In this document: in pieces, positions 11,263 through 29,853 of the stretch
Layout: every line of letters starts with the position of its first letter
Numbering within the stretch: position 1 is the stretch's first letter
Virus record (IMG/VR): IMGVR_UViG_3300019776_000564
Coordinates: 1-64,000 of that record
Reading direction: 5' to 3' (one strand)
DNA from: a virus
Length of the DNA stretch: 64,000 nt
Made by a program: the position numbers and the translations under genes
The notes under the pieces: generated by a model
Told to the model about the DNA's origin: nothing
The model's database searches: none
What the model saw: only the letters and a program-made list of their open reading frames with translations

Positions 11263-11754
11263 ATGGCTAGCATCTATCAAGACATCGACGGGTCTGGTAT
11301 CGGTTCCAAAACCTGGGAACAAAAGAAAGACAGCCCGGAGTGGACTCTGAAAGAGTACCGCAATGACAAGATCTGGGTTCGTCTCCACTGGATCGGTAAG
11401 TACGATAAGAGCCTGCCGGCCGAGTATCGTCACAGTCACGGTATCCAGGTTTACAACCGACTCATCGTCAAGAAGACCGAGTGGGAGGAAGAGACTTTCG
11501 AGGACAAAGGCTGGATTATCGACCCCGCTGCAACTCAAACCTTCCGAACCAAGTCTGCTGCCGAGTCTGCCTATGAGGATATGCTGCTTCTCTATACAGA
11601 GTGCAGCATTGACGTTGACGAGGATGGCGAAACTATCTTTGTTGAGGCAGGTAATCAGCTTGCGCCAGTTGTAGCTGGTAGCAGCTTGATTATGGATGAG
11701 GAGCAGATTGCTGCCGCTGCTGAAAAAGGCGTTTCGGTTGGCGGCTGGTCTTGA
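11263..11754 (+). CDS. Hypothetical protein, 163 aa, ends in GGWS tag
   Basis: Begins 2 nt after the lipoprotein stop. Acidic, with Trp-rich first half (SKTWEQKKDSPEWTLKEYRNDKIWVRLHW). No known domain. The last four residues GGWS fit the G-x-W-S C-terminal tail shared by about ten other small proteins in this window. The next gene starts within its stop (TTGA). Confidence 0.75.
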   Translation: MASIYQDIDGSGIGSKTWEQKKDSPEWTLKEYRNDKIWVRLHWIGKYDKSLPAEYRHSHGIQVYNRLIVKKTEWEEETFEDKGWIIDPAATQTFRTKSAAESAYEDMLLLYTECSIDVDEDGETIFVEAGNQLAPVVAGSSLIMDEEQIAAAAEKGVSVGGWS

Positions 11755-12344
11755 GTCATTACTTTGAACTGGAAGATGCGCCGGACTATCTGGCGCATTT
11801 CCCTGTGCTGCGCGGTAAAGCACAGTTAGGTCGTGGCGAATACTCTGTTGTATTTGAGGGTTGCTGCCCTAAAACCGTACTAAAGCTAACTGTGGATGAA
11901 ACTACGGTTAACTTCCTGCTTAACAGTCGAATCTTAGGCTGTGAGGGTCTTGTGGAGTTCGTTGAGTATCACGGCTCTATGAAATCCCCAGAGCATGAGA
12001 ATGGAGTACACCTCGTTGAGCTAAAAAGGCTTTACCCAATAGAGCCTGATGCTCACAGATCCCTCTACTGGGAAAGAGAGTCGGTCATTGCGGCGATCCG
12101 TCATCGGATAATTGAGAGTGATCGGTTCGAGGGAATCATCCCGGCTCAAGAGCGTTATGCAGGCGCAATTTACGAGCTTGCGTCCTCTAACCTTTTCAGC
12201 CAGTCAATATCAAAAGCGCTTCACTGTATCAGCCAGTTCATGAAAGCCAGCAGCTTGGATCTTCTTCATGATCTGTGTAACCCCGCAAACTATATGACCG
12301 ATGGTTCTCGGCTCATAATCACCGACCCCCTAGTCACTGTATAG
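11751..12344 (+). CDS. Protein-kinase-like protein
   Basis: 197 aa. A degenerate kinase layout is seen: Gly-rich loop LGRGEYSVVFEG (26-37), VLKLT with candidate ATP-lysine K45, an HDLCNPANYM catalytic-loop-like segment (173-182), and IITDPL (189-194) in the place of DFG. Small phage kinases commonly show D-L-x-x-x-N-x-M followed by ITDP, which is why I favour this call. The N-lobe is short and spacing in the catalytic loop is one residue longer than HRDLKPxN. The start is probably TTG 11751, overlapping the upstream TGA; the next in-frame option is GTG 11805. Confidence 0.55.
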   Translation: MSHYFELEDAPDYLAHFPVLRGKAQLGRGEYSVVFEGCCPKTVLKLTVDETTVNFLLNSRILGCEGLVEFVEYHGSMKSPEHENGVHLVELKRLYPIEPDAHRSLYWERESVIAAIRHRIIESDRFEGIIPAQERYAGAIYELASSNLFSQSISKALHCISQFMKASSLDLLHDLCNPANYMTDGSRLIITDPLVTV

Positions 12345-12384
12345 GTTGACTAGAGGCTCCCGCATCAAAGCCACACTCTGCCTT

Positions 12385-12410
12385 GTTGCGCTCTGTATCA
12401 TGAGCGCAAC
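12385..12410 (+). promoter_or_regulatory. Dyad surrounding a TATCAT box
   Basis: GTTGCGCTC and GAGCGCAAC are perfect 9-bp inverted arms around TGTATCAT. Same design as the elements at 10882 and 15324. It lies in the only sizeable gap between 11751 and 13354, 84 nt before the next start codon. Confidence 0.5.
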
Positions 12411-12493
12411 AGCTAAAACGCTAAGTAGCTGATTCGATTAGCTTTATATTTAGCGGTACTCACTCAAATATCAAAATCAAATAGGTGATTCGC

Positions 12494-13354
12494 ATGGCAG
12501 GCAAAAGCGCACTTCAGCAAGTAGAACAAGAACTTCCTATTGGTGAAACAGGCGTAGAAGAGATCGTAATCGGCGCTACAAGCGATACCGGCCTCGATGC
12601 TCTGGATGCGCTTGACGCAATGTTCGATCAACTTGGCGAAGGTGTTTCTACCGAAAGCATCGTTGTGAGCGGCCTGCCTTCTGTAACGGAAGCTGCAACC
12701 GAAAAGCAGATGATCGAAGCAGGTCATGCTGTGAACACCGAAGAGCTTAAGAAGATGGCTCTCGAAGAACTGGACGAGCAATCGCAGCCGGCACCTGACA
12801 ACGTTCAAGCGCCAGCTCCAGTAGCAAAGCGTCAAGCTCCAGTTACCAAGCGCATCAGCACCGTCGGTATGGCAAAGTCTGAAGCTCTGGCTGTTGCACT
12901 TGGTGACAAGCTTGATGACCTTCTGACCATCGACACCAAAGACCTGGCGATGAGCGATGAACAGCGCTTTGATAAGCGCGTTGCCTTGCTTGAGCAGATC
13001 GACAAGATGCCTAAGAAGATCGGCGAGAAAGCGACCAACCTTTTTGCGCACGTCTCCAAAGGCGCAGCGTTGTCCAACTACACCCGGATCGCAATCAACT
13101 TTCTGGTTCAGAACGACGAAATGTCCAGCAAGCAGTTGAAAGACGCCTATCTGAGCCGGCCTTATAGTGAGGGTACTTCCTCCAGCCAATGCACTCAGTT
13201 GATGCACCTTCTGCCTGCACTCGGTATCGCAATCAAAAGTGGCGGTCGACTGATCCCCAACCCAACCTCTACTCTGCTGCCTCTACTGACAGCGCTGAAT
13301 CAACCCGGCCCAACCACCGGCCCGGTAGAGACTGAAGAAGACTCGGCTGAGTAA
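12494..13354 (+). CDS. Hypothetical protein, 286 aa, flexible N-half and folded C-half
   Basis: ATG 12494 has AGGTGA 6 nt upstream and is preferred over GTG 12485. Residues 1-115 are acidic, with a Pro/Ala linker (QPAPDNVQAPAPVAKRQAPV). Residues about 170-265 look like a compact helical domain possibly of winged-helix type (SSKQLKDAYLSRPYSEGTSSSQCTQLM), which could bind DNA. This is a weak impression. Monocistronic, with an upstream dyad element and a strong terminator after it. Confidence 0.75.
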   Translation: MAGKSALQQVEQELPIGETGVEEIVIGATSDTGLDALDALDAMFDQLGEGVSTESIVVSGLPSVTEAATEKQMIEAGHAVNTEELKKMALEELDEQSQPAPDNVQAPAPVAKRQAPVTKRISTVGMAKSEALAVALGDKLDDLLTIDTKDLAMSDEQRFDKRVALLEQIDKMPKKIGEKATNLFAHVSKGAALSNYTRIAINFLVQNDEMSSKQLKDAYLSRPYSEGTSSSQCTQLMHLLPALGIAIKSGGRLIPNPTSTLLPLLTALNQPGPTTGPVETEEDSAE

Positions 13355-13371
13355 TTCGGTTTCCCCACCTT

Positions 13372-13393
13372 GCCCGCTTAGGCGGGCTTTTTT
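13372..13393 (+). terminator. Rho-independent terminator
   Basis: GCCCGC (13372-13377) pairs with GCGGGC (13382-13387), followed by six T's. Confidence 0.88.
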
Positions 13394-13406
13394 ATGGAGA
13401 GTAGAA

Positions 13407-13616
13407 ATGAGCAGTCTTCCTGATTGTGACCGTGATGTATACGAGCGCGGCGAAGTTGTCGGCGTATACAATATGCCCAAAGAAGAGGCTGAAGCTCTTC
13501 GTCATAGGCTCACCAAAGAAACTGGCAACTTGCATGACTGGCACTACTCTGGCGGTCGCGTTGTTATGAAGGTTCTGCTAGAGCCTAAAGAGAGAAAAGA
13601 GGGTATCTGGGCATGA
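13407..13616 (+). CDS. Small hypothetical protein, 69 aa, ends in GIWA
   Basis: Start ATG 13407 with GGAGAG upstream, immediately after the terminator. Contains YNMPKEEAEALRHRLTKETG. The C-terminal GIWA is a variant of the shared tail. Overlaps the next small membrane gene by 4 nt. Confidence 0.7.
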   Translation: MSSLPDCDRDVYERGEVVGVYNMPKEEAEALRHRLTKETGNLHDWHYSGGRVVMKVLLEPKERKEGIWA

Positions 13617-13723
13617 GCAAGGTTATGAAGTGCTTAGGATTTTGCATGATGATTGTAGGCAGCCTGGCTCTCGTTTACTGCATGGTTAACTTGATTCTTT
13701 TGGCTCAGAGTACAGGTAACTGA
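13613..13723 (+). CDS. 36-aa single-pass membrane peptide
   Basis: ATG 13613 overlaps the upstream TGA. After MSKVMK the rest is hydrophobic (CLGFCMMIVGSLALVYCMVN), a clear transmembrane helix of about 24 residues. The 4-nt overlap upstream and the HNH gene starting 1 nt after its stop support translation. Confidence 0.6.
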   Translation: MSKVMKCLGFCMMIVGSLALVYCMVNLILLAQSTGN

Positions 13724-13724
13724 A

Positions 13725-14279
13725 ATGACAAACCCTTTTCATCCGTACCCGGAGCCAAAGCTGACCATTGAATTGGTTCCATCCAGTCAATGGGGTGACA
13801 ACCTTCGCAGTCATCTGAAGCCTTTGCAGTGGGATCTTCTTCGTCAAGCCTGCTATGTTCGTGCTGATAACCGCTGCGAAGTATGCGGCGGTCGTGGGCA
13901 CAAGCACCCGGTCGAGTGTCATGAAATCTGGGAGTACAACGACAGTGCCCGGATTCAGAAGCTGCTTGGATTGGTTTCGCTGTGTCCAAGCTGTCACAAG
14001 GTGAAGCATATCGGCTTTGCTTTGACACAGGGTCAGGACTCTTTCATGAGATCGCTAGGTCAGTTGGCTACTGTGAATAAGTGGCCTATGGAGTTGGCTA
14101 TTGAGTATGTCGATCGCCAGTTTCAGATTCACAAGATCAGAAGCCAGTGGAAATGGCAGATTGATCTTAGCTGGCTGAACGATGTTGAGCAGTACATCGA
14201 AGAGTCTGAAACCAAACAGCGGGAAGCTCGCTCAGAGCGCGCACAAGACGTTTTATTGAACATGACACGCAAGCGCTAG
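13725..14279 (+). CDS. HNH-fold nuclease-like zinc protein
   Basis: 184 aa. C51EVC54 and C87PSC90 form a likely structural zinc site, VECHEIWEY (H66) supplies the first catalytic His, and HKVKH (91-95) the terminal part of an HNH module. Similar small HNH proteins in phages are homing endonucleases, packaging nucleases or inactive DNA-binding forms. It sits away from the terminase genes, inside an accessory operon. Its C-terminus is a basic helix. Confidence 0.7.
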   Translation: MTNPFHPYPEPKLTIELVPSSQWGDNLRSHLKPLQWDLLRQACYVRADNRCEVCGGRGHKHPVECHEIWEYNDSARIQKLLGLVSLCPSCHKVKHIGFALTQGQDSFMRSLGQLATVNKWPMELAIEYVDRQFQIHKIRSQWKWQIDLSWLNDVEQYIEESETKQREARSERAQDVLLNMTRKR

Positions 14280-14291
14280 AGTCTGTCGATA

Positions 14292-14360
14292 GCGCAGCTT
14301 ATACGAGCTTGTAGGCATGGCTTAAGTCACAGACTGCCGGGATAAGCCTATAAGCTGCGC
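14292..14360. ncRNA. Candidate structured RNA or leader, about 69 nt
   Basis: Perfect 12-bp outer arms, GCGCAGCTTATA (14292-14303) and TATAAGCTGCGC (14349-14360), enclose an inner GGCTTA/TAAGCC pairing. The element fills the gap before the zinc-ribbon gene at 14398 and is followed by GTAGAATC, similar to the -10-like boxes elsewhere. It contains a 17-mer (14298-14314) found again exactly at 27619. Function unknown. Confidence 0.4.
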
Positions 14361-14397
14361 GTAGAATCTAAGCATGTAGATCTATAGGAGTTCCAGA

Positions 14398-14679
14398 ATG
14401 TCCAGAGGAAGAAAGAGCGAAGCTATTCAGGCTCTCGCGGATAAAAGAAAGAGTGACCTGTGCAAGGTCATGAACTCGTTTAGCCGCACCTGCTCCAAAT
14501 GCAAAACGGCCGGAAGCAAGCGAAGGCTGTTTGACCTTGAAGATGGCCTGCTGTGCTTGTTCTGTCTTCCTGAAGGCGTAAATGGCGTCATCGCTTCGGA
14601 GCTTGAAAGGGAAAATAAAGAGCGGCTTGAGTTGGAGAAAAACAAGCCGAAGCCAGAGAGCTATGGTGAATGGTCATGA
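14398..14679 (+). CDS. Zinc-ribbon protein, 93 aa, ends in KPESYGEWS
   Basis: CSKC at about 34-37 and CLFC at about 53-56 form a four-cysteine zinc ribbon. Basic N-terminus (MSRGRKSEAIQALADKRK) and Glu/Lys-rich tail. Its C-terminus KPKPESYGEWS is one of the clearest examples of the shared tag. Translation is coupled to the next gene (TGGTCATGA). Confidence 0.75.
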   Translation: MSRGRKSEAIQALADKRKSDLCKVMNSFSRTCSKCKTAGSKRRLFDLEDGLLCLFCLPEGVNGVIASELERENKERLELEKNKPKPESYGEWS

Positions 14680-14900
14680 ATAACAATGCGGAGTATTGGG
14701 AAGAAGAGGCCGTTTCGCAAAAAGAGGATATGAAGAAAAAGATCGACCTCTTTATCCAGATGGCGAAACAAAGTAACCAAGTCGGAGTTGAGCGAACCAG
14801 AAAATTGGTTTCGGAATCTGAAAAGAAAAGGCTTGAAATGGATGTTGAAGAGTTGCTGGCAGAAGAGCAACGATCAACCGTCATGGGTACATGGGCGTGA
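14676..14900 (+). CDS. Small acidic coiled-coil protein, 74 aa, ends in MGTWA
   Basis: ATG 14676 overlaps the upstream TGA; ATG 14670 is an alternative. Nearly all helix-forming charged residues (ESEKKRLEMDVEELLAEEQR). The C-terminal MGTWA matches the shared [YFM]-G-x-[WF]-[SA] tail. No other feature recognised. Confidence 0.7.
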   Translation: MNNNAEYWEEEAVSQKEDMKKKIDLFIQMAKQSNQVGVERTRKLVSESEKKRLEMDVEELLAEEQRSTVMGTWA

Positions 14901-15286
14901 GATACGAAATCACTAATATGGCGGATGACAGTCTTTATCAATACTTAAAAGGGGACGATAACAGCAAGAAAGAAATGTATGAAGCGATAGTCGCCATGAT
15001 TAAGGCTGAAGAGGAGATTGCAAAAGCAAAAGCGCTTAAAGAAAAGCTGGAAGAGGAAACGGAGGCTGAAAACACCGCATGGTCTAACGTTATGATCGAG
15101 GCGATTGATAGCGGGGTGGTCGACGCAAGCGAAATCACCGAAGAGATATTCAAGATGCGCCGTAATGGTATGTCTATAGGCGCAGCGAGAAGAATGGTTA
15201 AGTCAATTATCAGCCATGAAAGAAGCAAGTTAGCGGAGCTTAAAAAGCTAGAGCCAAAACCTGAAGGCTACGGTTTGTGGTCTTAG
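14897..15286 (+). CDS. Helical protein, about 129 aa, ends in KPEGYGLWS
   Basis: I take GTG 14897 (GTGA overlap with the preceding stop, as elsewhere in this phage); ATG 14891 and ATG 14918 are in-frame alternatives. Charged helical N-half, then SITEEIFKMRRNGMSIGAARRM-like segment that could be a small helix-turn-helix. Ends PKPEGYGLWS. Here the last codons are followed by a plain TAG and no overlapping gene, so the tail is not merely a by-product of coding for a neighbour's start. Confidence 0.7.
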   Translation: MRYEITNMADDSLYQYLKGDDNSKKEMYEAIVAMIKAEEEIAKAKALKEKLEEETEAENTAWSNVMIEAIDSGVVDASEITEEIFKMRRNGMSIGAARRMVKSIISHERSKLAELKKLEPKPEGYGLWS

Positions 15287-15323
15287 TCTAGGCTAAATTC
15301 TGGCGCCCAAATAAAACCTCAAC

Positions 15324-15345
15324 GCGCTCTGTAAAATCAGAGTGC
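15324..15345 (+). promoter_or_regulatory. Dyad surrounding a TAAAAT box
   Basis: GCGCTCTG (15324-15331) and CAGAGTGC (15338-15345), 7 of 8 complementary, flank TAAAAT about 37 nt before the start at 15374. Same family as 10882 and 12385. Confidence 0.5.
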
Positions 15346-15373
15346 AAACAACAACTTAGTGAGAGTCCAAGCA

Positions 15374-16042
15374 ATGAAAGTTATCGGCAACGCAAAAGGC
15401 AAAGCACCTAAAGGCTGGTGCTTGATGAAGAACGCAAAAACTGGCTTCTTCTATGTCGGCTATGACGGCGACTGGCCTATTCATGGCGGCTACGAAGAAG
15501 TTCTTCACAAGGTAAAGGTCTTCAAAGATGAGCTGGCTGCTCAAGGCGATCGTCCAGTAGTTCTGCCTGAAGTTCCCTGCCCTGGCTATCTGGACTTTCG
15601 GATCGACCGCAAGACCCTGCCTCAAGAAACGCAAGATGCTTACAGCGCATACGAGGCGTACAGTAACTCGGTCTATCTCGCTGACCAGTGGGACAAGTTG
15701 GAAGAAAAGACTCACGTCGTGCCTTTCGACCACATGCCGCTGTTTGAAGCAGAGCTTCGTTTTGTTGGCTACACACGAGGCCGTAGCTCAGTAACCATGA
15801 AGTTTGAAGCAGAAAACGGCCAGATCATTGAGTTCGGCCCATCCGGCATCGACGGTCTGATTCAGGGCATTATCGATGGCAAGTGCGAAACCTGTGAACT
15901 GACAGGTAAGTACGAAGAGGAGACCTGGGATGAGATTAAACAGGAATATATCTGCACCATGATCCCGCGTGGTAAAGGCATCAAGGCCCGCTTCAAGTTC
16001 GCGAAGAAGGGTCAAAACACCTACGCTGAACTGTCGGAGTAG
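15374..16042 (+). CDS. Hypothetical protein, 222 aa
   Basis: ATG 15374 preferred (GAGAG about 9 nt upstream) over in-frame GTG 15359. Beta-rich with many Lys/Gly (MKVIGNAKGKAPKGW), a CETC pair near residue 178 and a basic end (GIKARFKFAKKGQNTYAEL). The C-terminal half (about 125-222) may be an independent domain. No family recognised. Begins a new transcription unit downstream of a dyad promoter-like element. Confidence 0.75.
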   Translation: MKVIGNAKGKAPKGWCLMKNAKTGFFYVGYDGDWPIHGGYEEVLHKVKVFKDELAAQGDRPVVLPEVPCPGYLDFRIDRKTLPQETQDAYSAYEAYSNSVYLADQWDKLEEKTHVVPFDHMPLFEAELRFVGYTRGRSSVTMKFEAENGQIIEFGPSGIDGLIQGIIDGKCETCELTGKYEEETWDEIKQEYICTMIPRGKGIKARFKFAKKGQNTYAELSE

Positions 16043-16047
16043 TAGCC

Positions 16048-16254
16048 ATGACTCTCGTCATTGTTGGCTGGGTAGCAATCCTGCTTATCACTGCATACCT
16101 GCTTTTCTCCAGCTTCGCAATTTTCGTTGGTGGGCTTGGTCTGACAGGCAAAGTTCCGGGTGAGTTCTACTTCTTTGTGGTTCTAACAGGGCTTATGGTT
16201 TGGCTCTGCTATCACACTTGGCCCTTTGAAGTAGCTATTAAGGCCACGCAATGA
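16048..16254 (+). CDS. Small two-helix membrane protein, 68 aa
   Basis: Hydrophobic segments at about 3-30 (VIVGWVAILLITAYLLFSSF) and 40-57 (FYFFVVLTGLMVWLCY) connected by GLGLTGKVPGE. Starts 5 nt after the preceding stop and overlaps the next gene by 4 nt. Inner-membrane location likely; role unknown. Confidence 0.75.
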   Translation: MTLVIVGWVAILLITAYLLFSSFAIFVGGLGLTGKVPGEFYFFVVLTGLMVWLCYHTWPFEVAIKATQ

Positions 16255-16502
16255 TTTGGCTGAAGCGGCTTTTCAACTTGCCAGCCCTTGTGTGCCTCCA
16301 CGTCCAGCACTCAAAGCAGTATATTCGTGTTCAGAAAGCGCAGAGCGACTTACATTGGGCTTGCGATCAGTGTGAAGACCCTAACAGCATGGCTGTTAGA
16401 AGCTTCACCCGCAGTCTGGAGCTTGAGCTTGAACGGATGACTGAAATTGACGAAAGGATCTATAAGCTATGGTCGAAGGGTCGAGGTTTGAAGATCGACT
16501 AA
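16251..16502 (+). CDS. Small hypothetical protein, 83 aa
   Basis: ATGA overlap with the preceding gene. Contains a CDQC pair plus CLHVQH, so a metal site is possible, then a Glu-rich helix (RSLELELERMTEIDERIYKLW). The following gene starts 34 nt inside its end. Confidence 0.65.
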   Translation: MIWLKRLFNLPALVCLHVQHSKQYIRVQKAQSDLHWACDQCEDPNSMAVRSFTRSLELELERMTEIDERIYKLWSKGRGLKID

Positions 16503-16651
16503 CCGACATTGCCCGGGCAGAGTTTTGTGCTCTGCTCAAGGCAAGGGTTTGGCAGTTGGAAGTTGAAATCGCAGAGCAGTTGGAAATCGAAGAAGCTTTG
16601 ATGGTCGAGTTCCAAGTCGAGAATCGCAAAATTATGGGAGGTTGGGCATGA
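16469..16651 (+). CDS. Small helical protein, 60 aa, ends in MGGWA
   Basis: Start ATG 16469 with AAAGGA about 9 nt upstream; overlaps the previous gene by 34 nt in another frame. Acidic amphipathic helix (LLKARVWQLEVEIAEQLEIE). C-terminal IMGGWA fits the shared tail. The GGGAGG inside its end is the ribosome-binding site of the next gene. Confidence 0.65.
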   Translation: MVEGSRFEDRLTDIARAEFCALLKARVWQLEVEIAEQLEIEEALMVEFQVENRKIMGGWA

Positions 16652-17226
16652 AAGGTTTTTTGAAGCGTAAAGTTGGCAAGCTGTTTGGTTTCTCGAAAGA
16701 GATCGAGCGTCTGGAAATGGCTTTGGTTGCTGTAAGCGTTGCTACTCAGGCAAACACTCGTCAGGCCGCAATTCAGCAGCGTCTGTCGGAAGACAGCCCC
16801 TGGTTCTGCGCAGCAGTTGCCGATGTTCATCATGCAGTTAACCGTGAGATCGCTCTCCGTGAAGAACTTCAGGCTGCTAACGAACGTTTCAGCTTTTCGA
16901 TCAGTGCCCGTGACAACCTCCGCGAAGCACTGCGACGCAAGTCCGGCGAGTGTGAGGATCTGAAAATCAAGATCATTGAGCTTGAATCCTTAGGCTCTAA
17001 ACTCACCCTCATCGACCCTCTGTCAACCAAGAACTGCATCAAGTGCGGTAGCGAAATGATCCCTCTTCGCAGCGAGGACAAAAAGCTGTGCAGTAACGGC
17101 GCTTGTGGTCATGAGATCGAATGGCTTCTCGAAGAGGGTCAGGAGTACATGCACAAGCGCAACGTGGAACCGTTCGTGGAAGATCGCTCCAACGTATCTC
17201 TTCGCCGTGAAATCGAAGAAGAGTGA
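16648..17226 (+). CDS. Coiled-coil zinc-ribbon protein, 192 aa
   Basis: Start ATG 16648, with GGGAGG 6 nt upstream. Basic N-terminus (MKGFLKRKVGKLFGF), central coiled coil (about 70-125), then a C-terminal zinc ribbon, NCIKCGSEMIPLRSEDKKLC...GACG (cysteines about 130-150). A nucleic-acid or protein-binding adaptor is plausible. No named family. Confidence 0.75.
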   Translation: MKGFLKRKVGKLFGFSKEIERLEMALVAVSVATQANTRQAAIQQRLSEDSPWFCAAVADVHHAVNREIALREELQAANERFSFSISARDNLREALRRKSGECEDLKIKIIELESLGSKLTLIDPLSTKNCIKCGSEMIPLRSEDKKLCSNGACGHEIEWLLEEGQEYMHKRNVEPFVEDRSNVSLRREIEEE

Positions 17227-17230
17227 TCCC

Positions 17231-17344: not shown

Positions 17345-17353
17345 GGGGTAAGC

Positions 17354-18197: not shown

Positions 18198-18209
18198 TCG
18201 GAGATCAAA

Positions 18210-18476
18210 ATGGCTTCAATGATCCGAGTCAAATGTGAATACTGCGGCAACGGCATTGAAGTTCGTGAGGCTGATCGAAAGCGTGGCTGGGGAAGGTTCT
18301 GCAACAAGTCGTGCAAAGCCGCTCACCAGTCATTCGGGCCAAAGTACCCAGCCACGCCCAAGCCCAAATCTACAAAGCCGACGCCCAAGAACATGAAGAA
18401 GGGCGGCGTGATACCTCCACCGCGTGAATCAATGAAAAGCACGCCAAAGCCAGAGAACTACGGAGGATGGTCATGA
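18210..18476 (+). CDS. Zinc-finger protein, 88 aa, ends in KPENYGGWS
   Basis: CEYC (about 9-12) and FCNKSC (about 30-35) form a treble-clef-like zinc site (VKCEYCGNGIEVREADRKRGWGRFC). A Lys/Pro-rich linker (PKPKSTKPTPKNMKKGG) leads to the shared C-terminal tail PKPENYGGWS. Coupled to the next gene by ATGA. Confidence 0.75.
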   Translation: MASMIRVKCEYCGNGIEVREADRKRGWGRFCNKSCKAAHQSFGPKYPATPKPKSTKPTPKNMKKGGVIPPPRESMKSTPKPENYGGWS

Positions 18477-18784: not shown

Positions 18785-18803
18785 TGGACAAGGGGCAATT
18801 GAA

Positions 18804-19235: not shown

Positions 19236-19236
19236 T

Positions 19237-19266: not shown

Positions 19267-19336
19267 ACCTATCTCAAAAGCTCGTAGAATCAACGCTCAA
19301 ATCAATGACTTACGTTAGCGCGTAACTTGAGCGAGG

Positions 19337-21710: not shown

Positions 21711-22006
21711 CCTGCTCAATCTCACTCATTCTTAAATACTCGCGTCGGCTTTGCACGATGAATAAGAGCCAGATCATGCACGCTATCACCGAAGAAACCG
21801 GTGAGCTTGCAACTGAGGTCGCTATCGATGCAGGCTACAAGAAGCGTGAGCATGGTAAAGACGGCATTATCGGGGAGGCTGTTGATGTGATTGTGTCGGC
21901 CGTAGATATGATTTATGCCGAAAATCCGCATATTACTGCGGAGGAAATCCATACTCTAATTTCTGCAAAGCGTGGAAAGTGGGCATATAACATCGAAAGG
22001 GGTTAA
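21707..22006 (+). CDS. MazG-like nucleotide pyrophosphohydrolase
   Basis: EETGELATEVAIDAGYKKREHG ... IIGEAVDVIVSAVDMIY carries the MazG signature (E-E-x-x-E, then E-A-x-D about 25-30 residues on) that binds Mg and hydrolyses (d)NTP to (d)NMP plus pyrophosphate. ATG 21707 overlaps the upstream TGA and gives 99 aa; ATG 21758 would give 82 aa and still keep the catalytic core. Small MazG-like proteins are common in phages, where they may tune dNTP pools or ppGpp responses. Confidence 0.75.
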   Translation: MTCSISLILKYSRRLCTMNKSQIMHAITEETGELATEVAIDAGYKKREHGKDGIIGEAVDVIVSAVDMIYAENPHITAEEIHTLISAKRGKWAYNIERG

Positions 22007-22010
22007 CAAG

Positions 22011-22403
22011 ATGGCTACGCTAACCCAAAAGCTGATCGCAAAGGCTCAGCAAGCGTGCGTAGCCTTCTACCACGTCGCAACCGACTACGATGACTGGGGG
22101 ACAATACCCGAACACTGGCTTCAGATTCACGCTGAGAGTCCTGCGCCGGGTTATATCAACAGATACTTCGTCCGAGTCAAGAGCACCAGACGCTTCGAGC
22201 ACCAGACGGATGCGTTGAGTGATATCGACCGAACTAGAGGCGTTGTGTGCGTCACCTTTCTGCACGGGGCGATCACGGCTGACACCGAATGGTATGTGAA
22301 GCCTAGTGGTCGCCATGCAAATCCACTGGAAAACTATCAATATAGAGACGCGCAAGAAGAGATTGAGGCTAACAAGCCAGAGGGGTATGGAAATTGGGCA
22401 TGA
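22011..22403 (+). CDS. Hypothetical protein, 130 aa, ends in KPEGYGNWA
   Basis: ATG 22011 has AAGGGG 9 nt upstream. Contains VRVKSTRRFEHQTDAL and DTEWYVKPSGRHANPLENYQY. The C-terminal NKPEGYGNWA belongs to the shared tail set. Overlaps the next gene by 4 nt. No family recognised. Confidence 0.72.
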   Translation: MATLTQKLIAKAQQACVAFYHVATDYDDWGTIPEHWLQIHAESPAPGYINRYFVRVKSTRRFEHQTDALSDIDRTRGVVCVTFLHGAITADTEWYVKPSGRHANPLENYQYRDAQEEIEANKPEGYGNWA

Positions 22404-22828
22404 ATGTTGAAGAGTGCAAGTCGCTGATTTGCCAGATTATGAAAAATCTGATTTCCAAAGTGTCTGACGATGATCTGAAAGAACTCGGTACGGAAGAGAC
22501 TTTACGTCTTAGCGATGTTCTGGATGAGAAAATGTGGAAAGAGTCGAGCAAGAGAACCTCATCAAAAGATGGTGTTACTCGCGTTTTTTCCAACATATCA
22601 ATTGACGCCAAGATTACGCTGCAAGAAATCCCTAACGCTGATGGCAATTCTCACGTTGAAGTAAATATGACCAAGATACCGAACATACTTCAGCGAGCGG
22701 TGGATGCGGTGGATCAGATGGATCTGCCGGGTAGCGGAAATGTTGGCCCATCAGTAGCTCGACGTACTGAAGAAATTCCATCAATGAAAGAGGGGCCAAA
22801 GCCAGAAGGCTTTGGGATGTTCTCATGA
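22400..22828 (+). CDS. Hypothetical protein, 142 aa, ends in KPEGFGMFS
   Basis: ATG 22400 overlaps the upstream TGA. Acidic; helical N-half (LICQIMKNLISKVSDDDLKEL), flexible Pro-rich linker (VGPSVARRTEEIPSMKEGPKPEG) and the shared C-terminal tail with Phe replacing both aromatics (GFGMFS). The tail is preceded by a long linker, as a tethered binding motif would be. Confidence 0.72.
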   Translation: MNVEECKSLICQIMKNLISKVSDDDLKELGTEETLRLSDVLDEKMWKESSKRTSSKDGVTRVFSNISIDAKITLQEIPNADGNSHVEVNMTKIPNILQRAVDAVDQMDLPGSGNVGPSVARRTEEIPSMKEGPKPEGFGMFS

Positions 22829-24072: not shown

Positions 24073-24114
24073 GCGTGATAAAGTGAGGCTTTGATAAATC
24101 AGAGGGCTTTAAAC

Positions 24115-24756
24115 ATGAGCAACAAGCTGAATGTCTCCAATTTCAACCTACAAATCGGCAACGATGAAGTGGTAGAAGCGAGCAAGGTTGCAAAGTTCAA
24201 AAGCGGCAACTTCGCGGTAGTTAAAGACACCGTTCGGATGTCAGTTGTTGGAGAAATGGGCAAGCCGGCATGTTTGCTTATTGAAGACTCCAAGAGCGGC
24301 TGGAAGCCAAAAGAGTCAGACTGCAACATCCTATGCTTCGATGTAACCATCAACGAACCCGGGCCTGATCGTGAGGTTATTCTGGCTCAGGTTGTTACGG
24401 TCAGCGGTATTGCGGCCGCCCAGATCGTTTGGATGGATCATGAGGCAACAGGTAAGGGTAAGGTTGTTCTCCGAGTCAAAGAGTACATGCCCGTAAATCC
24501 TGTCGATGTGGTCTTAAAAGGTGAGGTTGAGATTGGTGAAGAGATTTCGCTGATCCTCAGCCTTAAAAAGGACTCGAAGATTGAAGTGGCTACTATTGGC
24601 AGTCGGCTTAGCGTGGATTCGTTCCAGCTTAACGCTCAGTCGTATTCCAATGAGTCATTCAGGTTTGTAGTTGGGCCTCAAATCGAAGAAAACGATGACG
24701 GTCTTGCCTCAGTCGTCTTCACGACAATTGGCGTTCTCCATAAAGAAGCCCAGTAA
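24115..24756 (+). CDS. Hypothetical beta-rich protein, 213 aa
   Basis: Start ATG 24115 with GAGGG about 9 nt upstream. Two similar halves of alternating strands (ILAQVVTVSGIAAAQIVWMD; VVLRVKEYMPVNPVDVVLKG) with few cysteines, consistent with a beta-sandwich. No family recognised. Monocistronic, bounded by GATAAATC at 24089 upstream and a hairpin downstream. Confidence 0.72.
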   Translation: MSNKLNVSNFNLQIGNDEVVEASKVAKFKSGNFAVVKDTVRMSVVGEMGKPACLLIEDSKSGWKPKESDCNILCFDVTINEPGPDREVILAQVVTVSGIAAAQIVWMDHEATGKGKVVLRVKEYMPVNPVDVVLKGEVEIGEEISLILSLKKDSKIEVATIGSRLSVDSFQLNAQSYSNESFRFVVGPQIEENDDGLASVVFTTIGVLHKEAQ

Positions 24757-24761
24757 GAAAG

Positions 24762-24792
24762 AGCGGCTGTCGGTATTTTATTGGCAGCCGCT
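24762..24792 (+). terminator. Hairpin after beta-rich gene
   Basis: AGCGGCTG (24762-24769) pairs with CAGCCGCT (24785-24792). The loop contains TTTTA and no T-run follows, so this is a weak terminator or a processing hairpin. Confidence 0.45.
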
Positions 24793-24855
24793 TCCTGCCT
24801 CTATTTATAGCTTAAAATTCGCATGTGTTAATAACAACGCATGAGAGTAGAAAGC

Positions 24856-25425
24856 ATGAGCAAAGATAACCACGAACACAACCCAGAGTGCAGCCACTGT
24901 CAGATGCTCGCATCTGGCATGACTGAAGAGCAGGTTCGCGAAGCCTCCATTCAGCAAATCAAGGAAATGATCGAACGAAGCGGTATCGCGATCATTGGCG
25001 TTTCGCATGATGCCGAAAACAATGTTCCGGCATTCTTCTACACCGTTGGCTTTACTGACATCGGTATGCCAGAAGTGATTCTGTTTGGCCTGCCTGAAAA
25101 ACATGCTCTGCCAGCGATCAATCGCTACTTCAGTGAAGTCAAAGAAGGCACTCGCCCGAGTGGGCCTAGCCTGATCGATGACTACTTCAACCTGCCTGTC
25201 CAGATCATCAACGCAGACGCCGAAATTTCTTTGGGGATTGCGAGCGATACGGTCGCCTACTACGAGAATCAGGGTAAAGACTTGAAGCCAACCTTCGTTC
25301 AGTGGGTGCTGTCTGACAAGAATGGCGAGTTTCCCTGGAGCGAGAACTTCGAGCCTCACTTCTATCAGCCAGTAATCGGCCTTCCGCCGACTGAAGATCA
25401 GGCTTCAGACCGAGTTCTGCACTGA
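24856..25425 (+). CDS. DUF4262-like protein, 189 aa
   Basis: ATG 24856 preferred over ATG 24841, since GAGAGTAGAAAG lies just upstream. An N-terminal His/Cys patch (HEHNPECSHCQM) precedes the domain: GIAIIGVSHDAENNVPAFFYTVGF ... GMPEVILFGLPEKHALPAINRYF. The 'YTVG ... PE-hydrophobic-GLP' pattern matches DUF4262 from memory. Function unknown. Confidence 0.65.
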   Translation: MSKDNHEHNPECSHCQMLASGMTEEQVREASIQQIKEMIERSGIAIIGVSHDAENNVPAFFYTVGFTDIGMPEVILFGLPEKHALPAINRYFSEVKEGTRPSGPSLIDDYFNLPVQIINADAEISLGIASDTVAYYENQGKDLKPTFVQWVLSDKNGEFPWSENFEPHFYQPVIGLPPTEDQASDRVLH

Positions 25426-25458
25426 TAACCATAAACAAATTCTGATCATGTGGTGAAA

Positions 25459-25839
25459 ATGAAAAGCCTCGAAACGTTGGTTGAAGTCCCGGAAGAGTTG
25501 AAGGGTATCTACTCTTCATTGGAAGAGTTGAAAGCTGAGTTGGCGATCGTTGCGCCAAACAGCGAGCGCAACGATGTTCTCATGGGTAAGATCTTTGAGA
25601 AATTGACCACTGCTGAGGCAGAAGAGGTCAAGAAAGAGATCACGGAAATCGCCGTTGCGATGAACGATCTGATGAAAAAGCGTTTCGGTGAACCAACGCC
25701 AGAAGCAATTACTGGCCTCATCGTGTTCTCCGACTTGCTGCACGAATACTGCGAACCGCCGGCACTATCGTCTGAGCAGTTTCACGTACTTGTGGATTCA
25801 GGCGCCTTTGACGAACTGATGACGGGTACAGGCAAGTAG
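25459..25839 (+). CDS. Hypothetical helical protein, 126 aa
   Basis: ATG 25459 preferred; GTG 25450 and 25453 are in frame upstream. Glu-rich helices (EVPEELKGIYSSLEELKAEL; TTAEAEEVKKEITEIAVAMNDLMKKRFG). No family recognised. Right after its stop begins a copy of the TAGTAAGCGCTTGC motif (25840). Confidence 0.7.
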   Translation: MKSLETLVEVPEELKGIYSSLEELKAELAIVAPNSERNDVLMGKIFEKLTTAEAEEVKKEITEIAVAMNDLMKKRFGEPTPEAITGLIVFSDLLHEYCEPPALSSEQFHVLVDSGAFDELMTGTGK

Positions 25840-25853
25840 TAGTAAGCGCTTGC
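25840..25853. promoter_or_regulatory. Copy of the 14-bp pseudo-palindrome
   Basis: TAGTAAGCGCTTGC, one mismatch from TAGTAAACGCTTGC, the inverted orientation of the motif found before genes at 31270-33337. Confidence 0.5.
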
Positions 25854-25874
25854 AAAGTCCAACACCTGCCACTC

Positions 25875-25929
25875 GCTCTCTCGTAAACTAGCTTTAACGC
25901 AGCGCAAAAGCTGCGATTTACGAGAGAGC
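25875..25929 (+). promoter_or_regulatory. Leader stem-loop that covers the ribosome-binding site
   Basis: GCTCTCTCGTAAA (25875-25887) and TTTACGAGAGAGC (25917-25929) are perfect 13-bp inverted arms. A second hairpin CGCAGC/GCTGCG lies inside (25898-25915). The right arm contains GAGAGAG, the probable ribosome-binding site 7 nt before ATG 25936, so the stem would hide it. The left arm also holds a TAAACT -10-like box, so the element might instead act as an operator. Confidence 0.55.
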
Positions 25930-25935
25930 TTTCCC

Positions 25936-26583
25936 ATGACCGACAAGAATATCCACCTCGCCAGCAATAAACTGATCGCCGCAGCTTTTGAAGCGGCCGC
26001 TGTTGGAGAACCCGGGCAGTGTGTTATCGGGGTTTTCAAAGGTCTCGCCATCACAGCCTTAAAGTTTGAAGCTGTGACAGAGCGAGAAGGTATTGTTCGA
26101 GCCATCTGCACTGGCCCAGATAACAGTATCGTGGGGATCTGCGAAGCCAAAAAGTTTGAAGATATCCACGACTACCTAATAACCCGGTGTCAGCTAGCTC
26201 CTGCTCGCGTGAACTATGAGTGGAGCAAGTTCATCACCGCGAATGAAGCCGCTCTCCCCTACAAAACTCGCTTTGAAGAGGCTGAGTTGTTCAACAAGGC
26301 CAGCGAAGAAGCATCTCTAGGAACGATGGGTCAGTTTGAAGCTAATGGCCTCATGTACAGCATCGTTCACAATTCCGCGTTTCGCATCGTCGATAAAGAC
26401 GCCAGCAAAGATAGAACCAATCCAGAGTTCTATACCGTGTACATCCAAAACTCATCCGTGCAAGACCCTGATGAGTGTCTGGTCGACACAGAGTCGTTCG
26501 ATACCACGTTTGAAGCGATTGTGTTCATTCGCAACCACATTGAAAAGTCCCTGATGAAAGAATTTATGCCGAAAATGTTCTAA
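25936..26583 (+). CDS. Hypothetical protein, 215 aa
   Basis: Downstream of a strong leader stem-loop. No recognised domain; mixed alpha/beta with QCVIGVFKGLAITALKFEA near the start and HIEKSLMKEFMPKMF at the end. First gene of a three-gene unit that ends at 27302. Confidence 0.75.
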   Translation: MTDKNIHLASNKLIAAAFEAAAVGEPGQCVIGVFKGLAITALKFEAVTEREGIVRAICTGPDNSIVGICEAKKFEDIHDYLITRCQLAPARVNYEWSKFITANEAALPYKTRFEEAELFNKASEEASLGTMGQFEANGLMYSIVHNSAFRIVDKDASKDRTNPEFYTVYIQNSSVQDPDECLVDTESFDTTFEAIVFIRNHIEKSLMKEFMPKMF

Positions 26584-26610
26584 CTCACACAACCAGTTGG
26601 GGTGAATAAC

Positions 26611-26964
26611 ATGATCCAGAAAAAGATAGGCAAAATTACCTTCGGTGCCGGAATCATGAGCTTTGTGCCGGCCGACATAGACACCAGTCTCAGCGATGAG
26701 GTCGTTTATATGGCTGCTCTGGGTGACGCCATCAACAACGCAGGTGGTCACCGAAGCTTCATGCGAGAAAATGGCTTTGTCCGTCGCAACACACTCGGTC
26801 ATATTCAGATTCAGGGAGAAGGCTGGATCATCGATTTCAAGAGCGAAGAGTTTATTACCGAGTTCAATCGCCTCAAAGACTCGAAAGACTGGGTAGCTTT
26901 CGCCGCACTGTCTCAGTTCGACACAGTGACCTCGTTCGATAACAAGGGAAATAAGAAGCCATGA
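26611..26964 (+). CDS. Hypothetical protein, 117 aa
   Basis: ATG 26611 with GGGGTG upstream (GTG 26602 is an alternative). Contains MRENGFVRRNTLGHIQIQGEGWIIDF. Overlaps the next gene by 4 nt. No family recognised. Confidence 0.7.
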   Translation: MIQKKIGKITFGAGIMSFVPADIDTSLSDEVVYMAALGDAINNAGGHRSFMRENGFVRRNTLGHIQIQGEGWIIDFKSEEFITEFNRLKDSKDWVAFAALSQFDTVTSFDNKGNKKP

Positions 26965-27302
26965 GCCGCATTGACCTGATCAAACAAAAGCTTGGCGAAC
27001 CTACCTTGATTCACACAACCTGGGGTGTCGCAGAAAAGTGGCTGTTAGGCGCTCGCGTATCTCTGATCAATTGGCCTGAGAATGCCGGGACGTATCTGTG
27101 CTTTATCCCAACTCAACAGCAAGACTCTCGGCAGCTTGAGTGGCGTGCGGGAGATCAAGCTGCATGGTTCAGAGAACTGTACCCACAGTTCGATAAGATC
27201 AGCCTGTCTCACAGTCAGACCATCAGCAGAGAAGGCTTTGATGAGTGGCTAGATAAAGTGATCGCAGCTATGGCGCTCATAGCAACAAAGGGCACGCTGT
27301 AA
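26961..27302 (+). CDS. Hypothetical protein, 113 aa
   Basis: ATGA overlap. Trp-rich (TTWGVAEKWLLGARVSLINWPENAG; WRAGDQAAWFRELYPQFD), helical end. No family recognised. Followed by the 14-bp pseudo-palindrome and a strong terminator. Confidence 0.7.
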   Translation: MSRIDLIKQKLGEPTLIHTTWGVAEKWLLGARVSLINWPENAGTYLCFIPTQQQDSRQLEWRAGDQAAWFRELYPQFDKISLSHSQTISREGFDEWLDKVIAAMALIATKGTL

Positions 27303-27307
27303 TTATC

Positions 27308-27321
27308 TAGTAAACGCTTGC
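27308..27321. promoter_or_regulatory. Copy of the 14-bp pseudo-palindrome
   Basis: TAGTAAACGCTTGC, exact reverse complement of the GCAAGCGTTTACTA copies at 31209, 32248 and 33275. It lies right before a terminator, not before a gene, which argues against the motif being a simple promoter. Confidence 0.5.
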
Positions 27322-27323
27322 AC

Positions 27324-27352
27324 AAAAGCCTGCTCTAAGCAGGCTTTTTATT
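27324..27352 (+). terminator. Rho-independent terminator
   Basis: AGCCTGCT (27327-27334) pairs with AGCAGGCT (27338-27345), followed by TTTTA and TTT. Confidence 0.88.
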
Positions 27353-27391
27353 TGGTGAACATAGCGCCTTGGAATCGTGAACATGTGTAAA

Positions 27392-27483
27392 CCATTAACA
27401 TTCTGATGCACAACCTTAGGCGCGACAAAAGCCAACAAACATAAGGGTGAAAAGCCTGTTTACCCGTGTTCGAATGTTAATGG
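27392..27483. ncRNA. Candidate structured non-coding element
   Basis: CCATTAACATTC (27392-27403) and GAATGTTAATGG (27472-27483) are perfect inverted arms 68 nt apart, directly followed by a small GGGTTGTTAATACCC hairpin. There is no gene from 27303 to 27799 that I can support well. Candidate RNA or regulatory fold. Confidence 0.3.
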
Positions 27484-27496
27484 GTTGTTAATACCC

Positions 27497-27715
27497 ATGC
27501 AGAGACGAGACAGCGATCAGCTAAGACAGAAATTTGTCTCTGGGAAGACGTCTGAGAGCTTCTACAAGACGAGAACCGGATATAAACAAGTCAGCGTACT
27601 GCTCAAACATTCCCATCGCTTATACGAGCTTGTAGAAGCTCGACCATTTTACGAAAACAGAACTTTAGGACTCCGGGTTAGTTACCTGTTTGGGAGCCAA
27701 CTCTTCCCTATTTAA
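27497..27715 (+). CDS. Doubtful small basic open frame, 72 aa
   Basis: The frame starts ATG 27497 and encodes a basic, Arg/Lys/Tyr-rich peptide (MQRRDSDQLRQKFVSGKTSE). There is no clear ribosome-binding site. It contains the 17-mer also found in a non-coding element at 14298, and its 3' end lies in a large inverted repeat. More likely this is non-coding DNA; listed with low confidence. Confidence 0.25.
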   Translation: MQRRDSDQLRQKFVSGKTSESFYKTRTGYKQVSVLLKHSHRLYELVEARPFYENRTLGLRVSYLFGSQLFPI

Positions 27716-27760
27716 TAACTAGATAATACAAGCTGAAGTATTAAATAAGGGAAGGGTTGG
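27697..27760. repeat. Long inverted repeat
   Basis: A 21-nt arm at 27697-27717 is complementary to 27739-27760 except for one bulge and one mismatch (CCAACTCTTCCC against GGGAAGGGTTGG, then the TATTTAATA part). The 21-nt loop contains CTAGATAATACAAGC. The right arm ends 40 nt before ATG 27800, so it may be a leader hairpin or a terminator lacking a T-run. Confidence 0.6.
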
Positions 27761-27799
27761 ATGAGGCTCTTACCCTAGAAGCCAAAGAGAGGGAGTTGC

Positions 27800-28141
27800 A
27801 TGATCAACCCGGAACAAGAGCAGTTTCTGTCGACCATCTCGGCGCTTGCTCACAGCCTAAGAGGCCAAACTTTGACCGACTTGCAGTTGGATCAGCTTCA
27901 GATTGTGGAGCGTCTTCTGACCAACCTTGCTGTTCAGAAAGCAACTGAAAAGCCGGAAGCAAAGCCAGAGCCTGTCGAGTATCAGATCGGTGAACAGGTG
28001 ATGCTTGAGATGCCAACAGGTATGCAGCTAACAACGGTCATCGATAAGGTCGCTGCGGATACAGGCTACGAGTACAAGACCGCTGCTACTGGTCGCACCC
28101 TCTGGATTGGCACTCGCAGACTGCAAAAGGTGAGCAAATGA
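27800..28141 (+). CDS. Hypothetical protein, 113 aa, SH3-like C-terminal part
   Basis: Good ribosome-binding site (GAGAGGGAG). A helical N-half (FLSTISALAHSLRGQTLTDLQ) is followed by a Pro/Glu linker (KPEAKPEPVEY) and a small barrel-like region, YQIGEQVMLEMPTGMQLTTVIDKV. The last part suggests an SH3/Tudor-like fold, but no family is recognised. Overlaps the next gene by 4 nt. Confidence 0.7.
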   Translation: MINPEQEQFLSTISALAHSLRGQTLTDLQLDQLQIVERLLTNLAVQKATEKPEAKPEPVEYQIGEQVMLEMPTGMQLTTVIDKVAADTGYEYKTAATGRTLWIGTRRLQKVSK

Positions 28142-28674
28142 ATACCGAGTCTGAGTTCAAAGGCTTTCGATGGATCAAGTTCCATGAAACCTTGAAGATC
28201 ATGGGTTGGGATATGGCATGGGATCTGGACAACAATCTCAAGAATGAAGACCGTGTGGGAATCGTTCGCATTCTCCCGTCTATCAGGCTCTGCCCAGAAG
28301 GCTATGTAGCTATGCACCCGGAGCAAGAATCTAAAACGATCGCTTCAAAGCTGACCAAAACAGGCCATCTAGCAAGGCTCGTATCTATCAAGAGAGAAGG
28401 GTCTGCAAGATACGCAATAGAGATCTGTAACGTAGTCTCAGGGCGCAATTCTGCTGGCTATCCTGTTACCTACAACTGGGCCAACCTCGACGGCAAAATC
28501 CAAGAGCATACCCCTTACGTAAGCCTGTCTGAGGCTCTTGAGCAGTTCGCTGTAGATTGGGCAGGCAATATAGAAACCCCAATAGACTACGCAAAACTGG
28601 TCAAAAACAAGCCTATCGAGGCTCCTGTTGTGTCCCGGGCTGAGATCTATCAAGACTTCGGTACGTGGTCTTAG
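28138..28674 (+). CDS. Hypothetical protein, 178 aa, ends in DFGTWS
   Basis: ATGA overlap. Middle region ARLVSIKREGSARYAIEICNVV and NWANLDGKIQEHTPYVSLSEALEQFA look like a mixed fold; then a linker (NKPIEAPVVSRAEIYQ) and the shared C-terminal tail FGTWS, followed by a plain TAG with no overlapping gene. No family recognised. Confidence 0.72.
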   Translation: MNTESEFKGFRWIKFHETLKIMGWDMAWDLDNNLKNEDRVGIVRILPSIRLCPEGYVAMHPEQESKTIASKLTKTGHLARLVSIKREGSARYAIEICNVVSGRNSAGYPVTYNWANLDGKIQEHTPYVSLSEALEQFAVDWAGNIETPIDYAKLVKNKPIEAPVVSRAEIYQDFGTWS

Positions 28675-28836
28675 ATACGGCTACCGCTTAACCCAAGCAC
28701 GTATCCCGTGTAACCCCATAGCTGTCTAGCTAGACTACACACAAGCGCACACAGATAGCGCTACGCAAGACCATTGGTAATGAAACAAGCAAGTCATGGA
28801 AGTCAACAAGCCCTTAAACCAAGTGGAGTGTTAACG

Positions 28837-29121
28837 ATGTCCAGTCAAGCTCGTATCAACAAAACCAACAGCGTCGTAGTCCCGCTAGTACAGACGAACA
28901 AGGCAGTATTGTCGTTCTCTGATCTGGTAGTAGGTGATCGCTTTCAACCCGTGTACGCAATCGGGAAAGGTTTCCCCGTATACACGAAAACCCGGCATGA
29001 CCAAGCGCGCTGTCACAGCCTTGAGTCGATAGAACTGAAGAAGAACAGCTATGGCTATCTCGAAGATCCAATCGTAGCCGTAGCTGCAAATGAGAAGGTT
29101 CGTTTTCTACCCGTCGAGTGA
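28837..29121 (+). CDS. Hypothetical protein, 94 aa
   Basis: ATG 28837 with GGAGTG upstream. LSFSDLVVGDRFQPVYAIGKGFPVYTKTR suggests a small beta barrel. Stands alone between the non-coding stretch 28675-28836 (no feature seen there) and a strong terminator. Confidence 0.65.
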   Translation: MSSQARINKTNSVVVPLVQTNKAVLSFSDLVVGDRFQPVYAIGKGFPVYTKTRHDQARCHSLESIELKKNSYGYLEDPIVAVAANEKVRFLPVE

Positions 29122-29143
29122 GCTTCGACGTGGTAAAGGCTGT

Positions 29144-29186
29144 AGTGACCGTAAAGCTTTCTTAAGCCTCTTACGGTCACTTTCTT
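29144..29186 (+). terminator. Rho-independent terminator
   Basis: AGTGACCGTAA (29144-29154) pairs perfectly with TTACGGTCACT (29171-29181), followed by TTCTT. Confidence 0.75.
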
Positions 29187-29236
29187 AAAACCGTTTTAAC
29201 CAAGGCAAACCTAAAGAAAAGCAGGAGCACACAAGT

Positions 29237-29569
29237 ATGTCCATCAAGCCACAAATCAAACCATGCAAACTCCCGGAGAACATCTATCTGCTTCTAGAGA
29301 ACGGCAAATACGTAGGCCGCACAACCGATCTCAAGAACGTCATCCATTTCGCAGAGCGTACTAGCCAAGGCAAGCTCAAGGTAGAAGTAGATCTGCTCAC
29401 TGATAACAGCCTTGAGAAGGTAGATCTAGAGATGCTTAAAAGTCTGCTCAAAAAGGAAAACTACAAAGCCGGCGTAGAGAAACGTCAGGCCACTTTGGCT
29501 AAAAAGAAACTCGAAGCCAAAGCCTCTGTTAACGGTCTTCCTGCAGGCTCTTACGGGATTTTCTCATGA
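29237..29569 (+). CDS. Hypothetical protein, 110 aa, ends in SYGIFS
   Basis: GCAGGAG ribosome-binding site. Short beta N-half (ENIYLLLENGKYVGRTTDLKN), then a Lys-rich helix (KRQATLAKKKLEAKA), then linker VNGLPAG and the shared tail SYGIFS. Overlaps the next gene by 4 nt. Confidence 0.7.
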   Translation: MSIKPQIKPCKLPENIYLLLENGKYVGRTTDLKNVIHFAERTSQGKLKVEVDLLTDNSLEKVDLEMLKSLLKKENYKAGVEKRQATLAKKKLEAKASVNGLPAGSYGIFS

Positions 29570-29853
29570 TCATTCGCAAACCACCTAAGGGTGAACCAAT
29601 CCCAGAAGCTTTGTTGATTCACAAAGAGAAATCCCTTAAAGGCCAAATCAAGAAAGCAGAACGTGACCTCAAACGTGTAACCACAAGAAAGAACCAACTG
29701 GGTAAACACGTCGTAGAAAGATTTCAGAAATACCTAGACCAACAGTTCACCACTCTCTATCAGTTTACAGAGTACCTAGAAACCAAAGACCTCGATTCTA
29801 TAAGCCTCAAGCAGAAGCAACCCGGATACCAAGACTGGGGAGGTTTCCAGTGA
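29566..29853 (+). CDS. Basic coiled-coil protein, 95 aa, ends in DWGGFQ
   Basis: ATGA overlap. Strongly basic helix (KSLKGQIKKAERDLKRVTTRKNQL). The C-terminal YQDWGGFQ looks like a diverged version of the shared tail (aromatic-G-x-F). Nucleic-acid binding is possible from charge alone. Confidence 0.65.
   Translation: MIIRKPPKGEPIPEALLIHKEKSLKGQIKKAERDLKRVTTRKNQLGKHVVERFQKYLDQQFTTLYQFTEYLETKDLDSISLKQKQPGYQDWGGFQ

Follow-up and report, generated by a model that had tools for sequence, protein, structure and literature searches.

The C-terminal tip of the bacterial single-stranded DNA-binding protein (SSB) is a short docking peptide with a terminal aromatic residue, which one protein carries and many partners read. 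In the eukaryotic ribosomal P-stalk, several proteins share a C-terminal tail with an aromatic-G-x-F chemistry. Closer to the case considered here, a study of phage T4 describes interchangeable C-terminal clamp-binding motifs in gp43, gp55, and gp33, through which these proteins dock onto gp45, the motif of gp55 being attached through a divergent linker (PMC2988020). We analyzed a C-terminal tail, G-x-[WF]-[SA], that recurs on small proteins encoded in bases 1–64,000 (the window) of a 108,018-base viral contig, IMG/VR record IMGVR_UViG_3300019776_000564, whose nearest named relatives are Nickievirus phages of Pseudomonas syringae. The original prediction, made from the letters of the window, listed eleven such endings and a diverged twelfth and proposed that they form a docking, sorting, or degradation signal read by one partner; all twelve endings are confirmed at their positions. 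We put at roughly 0.5 the probability that these proteins use the tail as a docking peptide at their C-termini, with a single shared and probably phage-encoded hub of replication and recombination as the partner. A selected short C-terminal signal with one partner is the best fit, and docking is the most probable of the three proposed functions. No description of such a tail was found in the literature at the level of titles and the beginnings of abstracts, a range that largely leaves out subscription journals and preprints.

Collected over the whole genome, the tail occurs far above its chance rate. Fifteen of the contig's 767 open reading frames of at least 40 residues end in G-x-[WF]-[SAG], hereafter the narrow ending, and comprise 14 plausible genes and one antisense frame. 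Gene calls throughout come from a simple custom caller, a first run of which overlooked the true carriers at 16469, 18210, and 21972. Among called genes, the narrow ending is found in 12 of 138 in the contig, where composition predicts 0.105, and in 14/159 in phiK7B1, 13/156 in nickie, 14/161 in hairong, 14/149 in Nican01, 13/153 in ZY21, and 13/158 in the IMG/VR contig G001; the composition-based expectation is 0.105 to 0.130 per genome across these seven Nickieviruses. A broader core, [WFY][GA].[WF][SAG]?, scored over 27 genomes, terminates 158 of 3841 called genes compared with 3.1 expected from its internal rate, and is biased toward small proteins (157 of 3127 shorter than 300 residues vs 1 of 714 longer ones). 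An equal rate in unrelated phages would, by the original prediction, have refuted it, but the tail is absent from the 53 called genes of lambda and from the 84 in the first 50 kb of T4.

The last serine or alanine is a lineage feature, and the core of the signal is aromatic-Gly-x-aromatic. In a set of 250 distinct ends chosen for having the core, glycine is present in 241 and W or F is last or next to last; the first aromatic residue is W in 99, F in 96, and Y in 55, the second is F in 134 and W in 116, and N and P are the most frequent residues three and two positions before the first aromatic. The core stands at the free carboxylate in 183 of the ends; the other 67 have a single small residue, A, S, or G, after it. 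The glycine is not absolute: orthologs of the protein at 13407–13616 finish SPWA or SDWA. The core is preceded by a helical linker or by one rich in K, P, and E, a composition noted in the original prediction and borne out by enrichment over the stretch from −20 to −6 ahead of the tail (K 0.099 vs 0.070, P 0.109 vs 0.045, E 0.190 vs 0.081). Codons also differ between copies, as had been claimed, with the glycine of 98 tails in the seven Nickievirus genomes encoded by GGT in 31, GGA in 26, GGG in 24, and GGC in 17.

The presence of the tail on unrelated bodies is likewise supported, and within families the tail is largely constant. In a clustering of 15 genomes (the contig and 14 others), 13 Nickievirus families with at least four members each are fully tailed (80 of 80 members). 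Three families are mixed: orthologs of 13407–13616 end GIWA, GEWA, SPWA, and SDWA; those of 21972–22403 end GNWA, GSWA, GTWA, and GAWE; and the family of hairong 94037–94543 has the tail in one of four members, which counts against the claim of a shared signal. Relatives that keep the body and lack the tail would, by the original prediction, refute it. Within the group the 13 families have none and the hairong family has three; outside it, the comparison concerns the zinc-finger-like protein at 18210–18476. The body of this protein (residues 1–43) is widespread in unrelated phages, but the tail is not: 53 phage records match it, none over more than 80% of its length, with coverage of 36–47% among the 25 matches listed, and the five matching genes that were inspected all end differently from the tail. 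Because these matches are partial and differently ended, we suggest that the tail was added to a widely distributed body in the lineage of the contig; on sequence comparison, the tail-less relatives fit a grafted tail rather than refute the signal.

The tail extends well beyond Nickieviruses. The capsid gene connects the Nickievirus phages with Stenotrophomonas phages, Rhizobium phages, SSU5, Cyrano, and Klebsiella phages, and a gene order of helicase, primase, X, ligase, CobT, CobS, DnaE, SSB, exonuclease, RecA, SbcD, SbcC, Y, and RuvC is broadly common in the group. Here X denotes the first gene after primase and Y the tailed gene that follows SbcC; both are tailed in the Nickievirus, Rhizobium, and SSU5-like phages in the clustering. 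We took the best 80 primase and the best 80 SbcC loci from IMG/VR, of which 70 and 78, respectively, were countable, the remainder having no match or too little downstream sequence; both sets include near-duplicates. By position only, X has the core at its end in 69 of the 70 primase loci, the core in the remaining one being on a nearby open reading frame. After SbcC, the core is on the first gene in 46 of 78 loci and within three genes or 1.6 kb in 67. These counts are the unbiased figures for the two proteins; the X and Y alignments were built from proteins selected by the tail core, and the invariance of the tail glycine in them is partly built in. The core enzymes examined, namely DnaE, primase, helicase, RecA, and SSB, lack the tail.

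Based on profile matches, X is a WGR-domain protein. PF05406 is matched by 25 of 42 tail-selected X proteins, and an X profile retrieves the WGR domains of PARP structures in the PDB (best E 1.8e-9). PF05406 alone falls below its cut-off in Nickieviruses and SSU5-like phages; profile–profile comparison aligns Nickievirus X to the X profile with a probability of 82.9. The X of the contig had no viral relative in a single-protein scan, and in a search of 11 records it matched three, all Nickieviruses. Outside the WGR region, the structure predicted for X is of low quality (mean predicted local distance difference test score, pLDDT, 57.4), and PARP1 structures fill the top PDB rows for the model, the WGR matches having E values of 0.02 or worse. 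The WGR domain is the likeness of X to PARP1-3; X differs in being a small phage protein with an aromatic tail, and nothing in it was seen to match the PARP catalytic part. The fold of Y is different: its model is confident (pLDDT 94.6) and shows a small sheet between helices, the last of which stops at residue 161, immediately before an NPNFGRF tail. No solved structure is a confident relative of the Y model (at best Foldseek E 0.20 and VIA-align Z 4.0, the latter with a root-mean-square deviation of 3.2 over 63 residues), and BFVD yields one phage protein of unknown function (E 1.1e-5).

Unrelated proteins of one phage lineage carry the same dialect of the tail: Stenotrophomonas phages have YG-x-W, Rhizobium phages N-[FY]-G-R-F or similar, and SSU5 W-A-T-W. 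In the Stenotrophomonas phages ANB28 and BUCTxx99, YG-x-W stands immediately before TAA, TGA, or TAG, and eight consecutive genes of ANB28 (PQ434692.1, 100370–102740) end in it. The small gene that follows also has an aromatic tail, YDSIW, giving nine such genes in a row over 100370–103066. In an independent lineage (G002) all three tails, NWGAWG, NWGTWG, and TYGTWG, carry an extra glycine. Within genomes, the tails of X and Y share 57 features in 20 pairs compared with 33.6 after shuffling, and 45 compared with 28.1 in the 15 pairs left when identical X–Y pairs are collapsed, which leaves the conclusion unchanged, although this agreement is inflated by shared ancestry and shuffling overstates its significance. 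The two proteins also agree on the presence or absence of the extra last residue in 20 of 20 genomes. Concerted dialects on unrelated proteins are what is expected of one co-evolving receptor, and they favor a phage-encoded one.

We therefore picture the docking reading, for which the chances are about even, as follows. One phage-encoded pocket, within or attached to the replication–recombination machinery, would read the tails, gripping both aromatic side chains across the glycine turn together with the nearby carboxylate. Accessory DNA proteins, among them X, Y, zinc-finger proteins, and other early proteins, would in this way be held at the sites of phage DNA synthesis or repair, and new accessory genes could join by gaining the tail. 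Tentatively, we go on to propose a private address code, NPx[WFY]-G-x-[FW] with dialects, in a superfamily of tailed phages of about 100–120 kb, in which one phage-encoded receptor, neither a known clamp nor an SSB, would bring a variable set of unrelated small proteins, up to about 15 of them, to the replication–recombination machinery, so that the address would mark hypothetical genes that work together. Several observations weigh against such docking, in addition to the effect of ancestry on the X–Y comparison. No receptor was found, and docking is predicted from sequence; the case for a DNA-related role comes from X and its location, the position of Y, and the zinc-finger-like bodies, the other window carriers having no assignable function; ANB28 has many tailed proteins, yet the gene directly after its primase is tail-less; and the genome G009 mixes one extended tail (with the extra glycine) and two plain ones.

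Candidates for the receptor, and mimicry of the SSB tip, were also considered. A sliding clamp, which may still be the receptor, was not detected: the gp45 and beta clamp families PF09116 and PF02768 matched in none of eight genomes, a search in which sequence models may miss a diverged clamp and which had no gp45-bearing positive control, and the DnaE-type polymerase is tail-less, the core being absent from its end in all 27 genomes on the gene calls used, of which that of p4727 is shortened. Mimicry of the SSB tip is rejected. The contig gene at 84732–85508, at one point taken for an SSB, encodes the WGR protein; the SSB is located elsewhere, and in all 26 of the 27 genomes in which the gp32-like SSB was found its end is acidic, rich in D and L, and without the core. 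Another receptor candidate is the 286-residue protein at 12494–13354 of the window, which lies amid the tailed early region and is conserved in 24 of 27 genomes; its relatives have mainly the C-terminal region in common, which appears winged-helix-like by eye. As a separate observation, the gp32-like SSB of the contig lies beyond the window, at 97373–98203, and its acidic, leucine-rich C-terminus is conserved in kind across the group, making it a candidate for a second C-terminal docking element.

Among the alternatives, the one that survives best, and which we nevertheless consider unlikely, is that the tail docks onto a host replication, transcription, or repair protein. The failure to detect a phage clamp leaves room for host factors to serve, and X and Y adjoin replication and recombination genes; however, the dialect tracks the phage lineage (YGxW, NFGRF, WATW, YGxWS), a pattern not expected of a conserved host pocket, which should hold to one form. 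This argument is only indicative, as host genera differ too.

Somewhat less probable is a C-terminal degradation signal through which an unfoldase–protease would remove early proteins on schedule. The tail is strictly C-terminal and sits on small proteins mostly of the early region, and an HslV-like peptidase (phrog_1040) is encoded in 7 of 12 records, those of Nickieviruses and Rhizobium phages; in the window its gene is at 41347–41892. The same gene is missing from two tail-rich Stenotrophomonas phages and three SSU5-like ones, and we rejected this peptidase as the general reader of the tail given its absence from two lineages. The ends do not resemble AA or LAA (an ssrA-like ending does not occur among the 250 distinct ends, by definition of the core), and group-wide use on X and Y fits a constant function better than removal. 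As an observation in its own right, endings in AA are very frequent in several genomes: they terminate 29 of 160 proteins in RHph_Y2_11, 28 of 146 in RHph_X66, and 19 of 163 in RHph_N1_10, and in IMG/VR genomes 31/159 (G018), 27/145 (G019), 19/159 (G002), 19/142 (G014), and 17/151 (G017), with about two expected in each. RecA is among them in several genomes, Nickieviruses have 0–3 and lambda 8 of 53, and over half of the pooled AA-ending genes lack an overlapping start.

We give little credence to the possibility that the tail targets its carriers to the virion for injection. Encapsulin cargo peptides sort cargo into HK97-fold shells in this manner, a short C-terminal x-G-x-hydrophobic peptide being a known cargo signal, and the group as a whole has a conserved major capsid protein; those carriers with an assignable location, however, sit in early and replication modules. 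No virion proteomics of these phages was found, and the term "mass spectrometry" is absent from the main text of PMC11256456 and PMC8537276. Finally, the notion that the tail is a by-product of translational coupling, in which [TG]CA-TGA would provide the following ATG and the glycine codon a ribosome-binding site, is rejected on counts, as the original prediction had anticipated from the stops at 15286 and 28674, both TAG without an overlapping start: the other 10 of the 12 stops in the window overlap a possible start (NTGA), and a four-base NTGA overlap accompanies 66 of the 98 Nickievirus tails, but 5 have a TAATG-type overlap and 27 neither, 371 other genes in the same seven genomes have the NTGA overlap without the tail, the glycine codons are mixed, and relatives retain the core while the coding context changes, even without any S/A codon.

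All carriers in the window are encoded on the plus strand. The first, at 11263–11754, is a 163-residue protein with the tail SVGGWS, for which tblastn gave matches only in six Nickievirus records and whose family is tailed in 7 of 7 Nickieviruses. It is followed at 13407–13616 by a 69-residue protein with the tail KEGIWA (orthologs finish GEWA, SPWA, and SDWA; three of seven fit G-x-W), and at 14398–14679 by a 93-residue CxxC protein, possibly a zinc ribbon, with the tail KPESYGEWS, whose orthologs are tailed in 7 of 7 and whose Pfam and PHROG matches are weak at best. A 76-residue protein ending VMGTWA (14670–14900; the start may be 14676) precedes a 131-residue protein ending KPEGYGLWS (14891–15286), a 60-residue protein ending IMGGWA (16469–16651; family tailed in 6 of 6), and the 88-residue zinc-finger-like protein, which ends KPENYGGWS (18210–18476). 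Next are open reading frames of 143 residues, ending KPEGYGNWA (21972–22403; three of the six family members fit G-x-W-[SA] and three end YGAWE), and of 144 residues, ending KPEGFGMFS (22394–22828, with a possible start at 22400; family tailed in 6 of 6). The last three are a 178-residue protein ending YQDFGTWS (28138–28674; family tailed in 7 of 7), a 110-residue protein ending GSYGIFS (29237–29569), and a 95-residue protein with the diverged tail YQDWGGFQ (29566–29853), in which the aromatic-G-x-aromatic core is intact and the last residue is Q. Relatives of the carriers at 14670, 14891, 18210, 29237, and 29566 were absent from the 14 other clustered genomes, and Pfam, PHROGs, NCBIfam, and PADLOC assigned no function to the window carriers, giving weak zinc-finger-like matches and one marginal PADLOC row. 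Beyond the window, tailed genes are present at contig positions 84732–85508, 103813–104613, and 104604–105476, outside the stretch covered by the original prediction.

A different ending occurs earlier in the window. The small proteins at 2031–2396 and 2398–2721 end PEW and INW, upstream of NrdB (2762–3814), whose own end is LEW; similar ends were found in five of seven other genomes checked (phiK7B1, nickie, hairong, Nican01, and ZY21), the other two giving no row. Judged from these endings, the two proteins may bind NrdA where it recognizes the NrdB C-terminus.

For most early proteins of these phages no function can be assigned, and a common address would make a dozen of them one system. 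In about a hundred relatives, X and Y would be identified as the core of this system, and the tail peptide could serve as bait for the hub. If true, this would be repeated recruitment of a short C-terminal motif onto new bodies on an unusually large scale. Among known systems, the SSB tip differs in that many proteins here carry the peptide, and the P-stalk is an unrelated system that offers an analogy only (Y profile vs P2, E 0.049, not significant). The likeness to T4 lies in highly similar, interchangeable hydrophobic C-termini on functionally different proteins, as described in PMC2988020. There, however, three proteins including the polymerase are carriers, whereas here up to about 15 small proteins are and the polymerase is excluded. 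By this analogy, our best reading is that the tail works like the T4 clamp-binding C-termini but is not that system.

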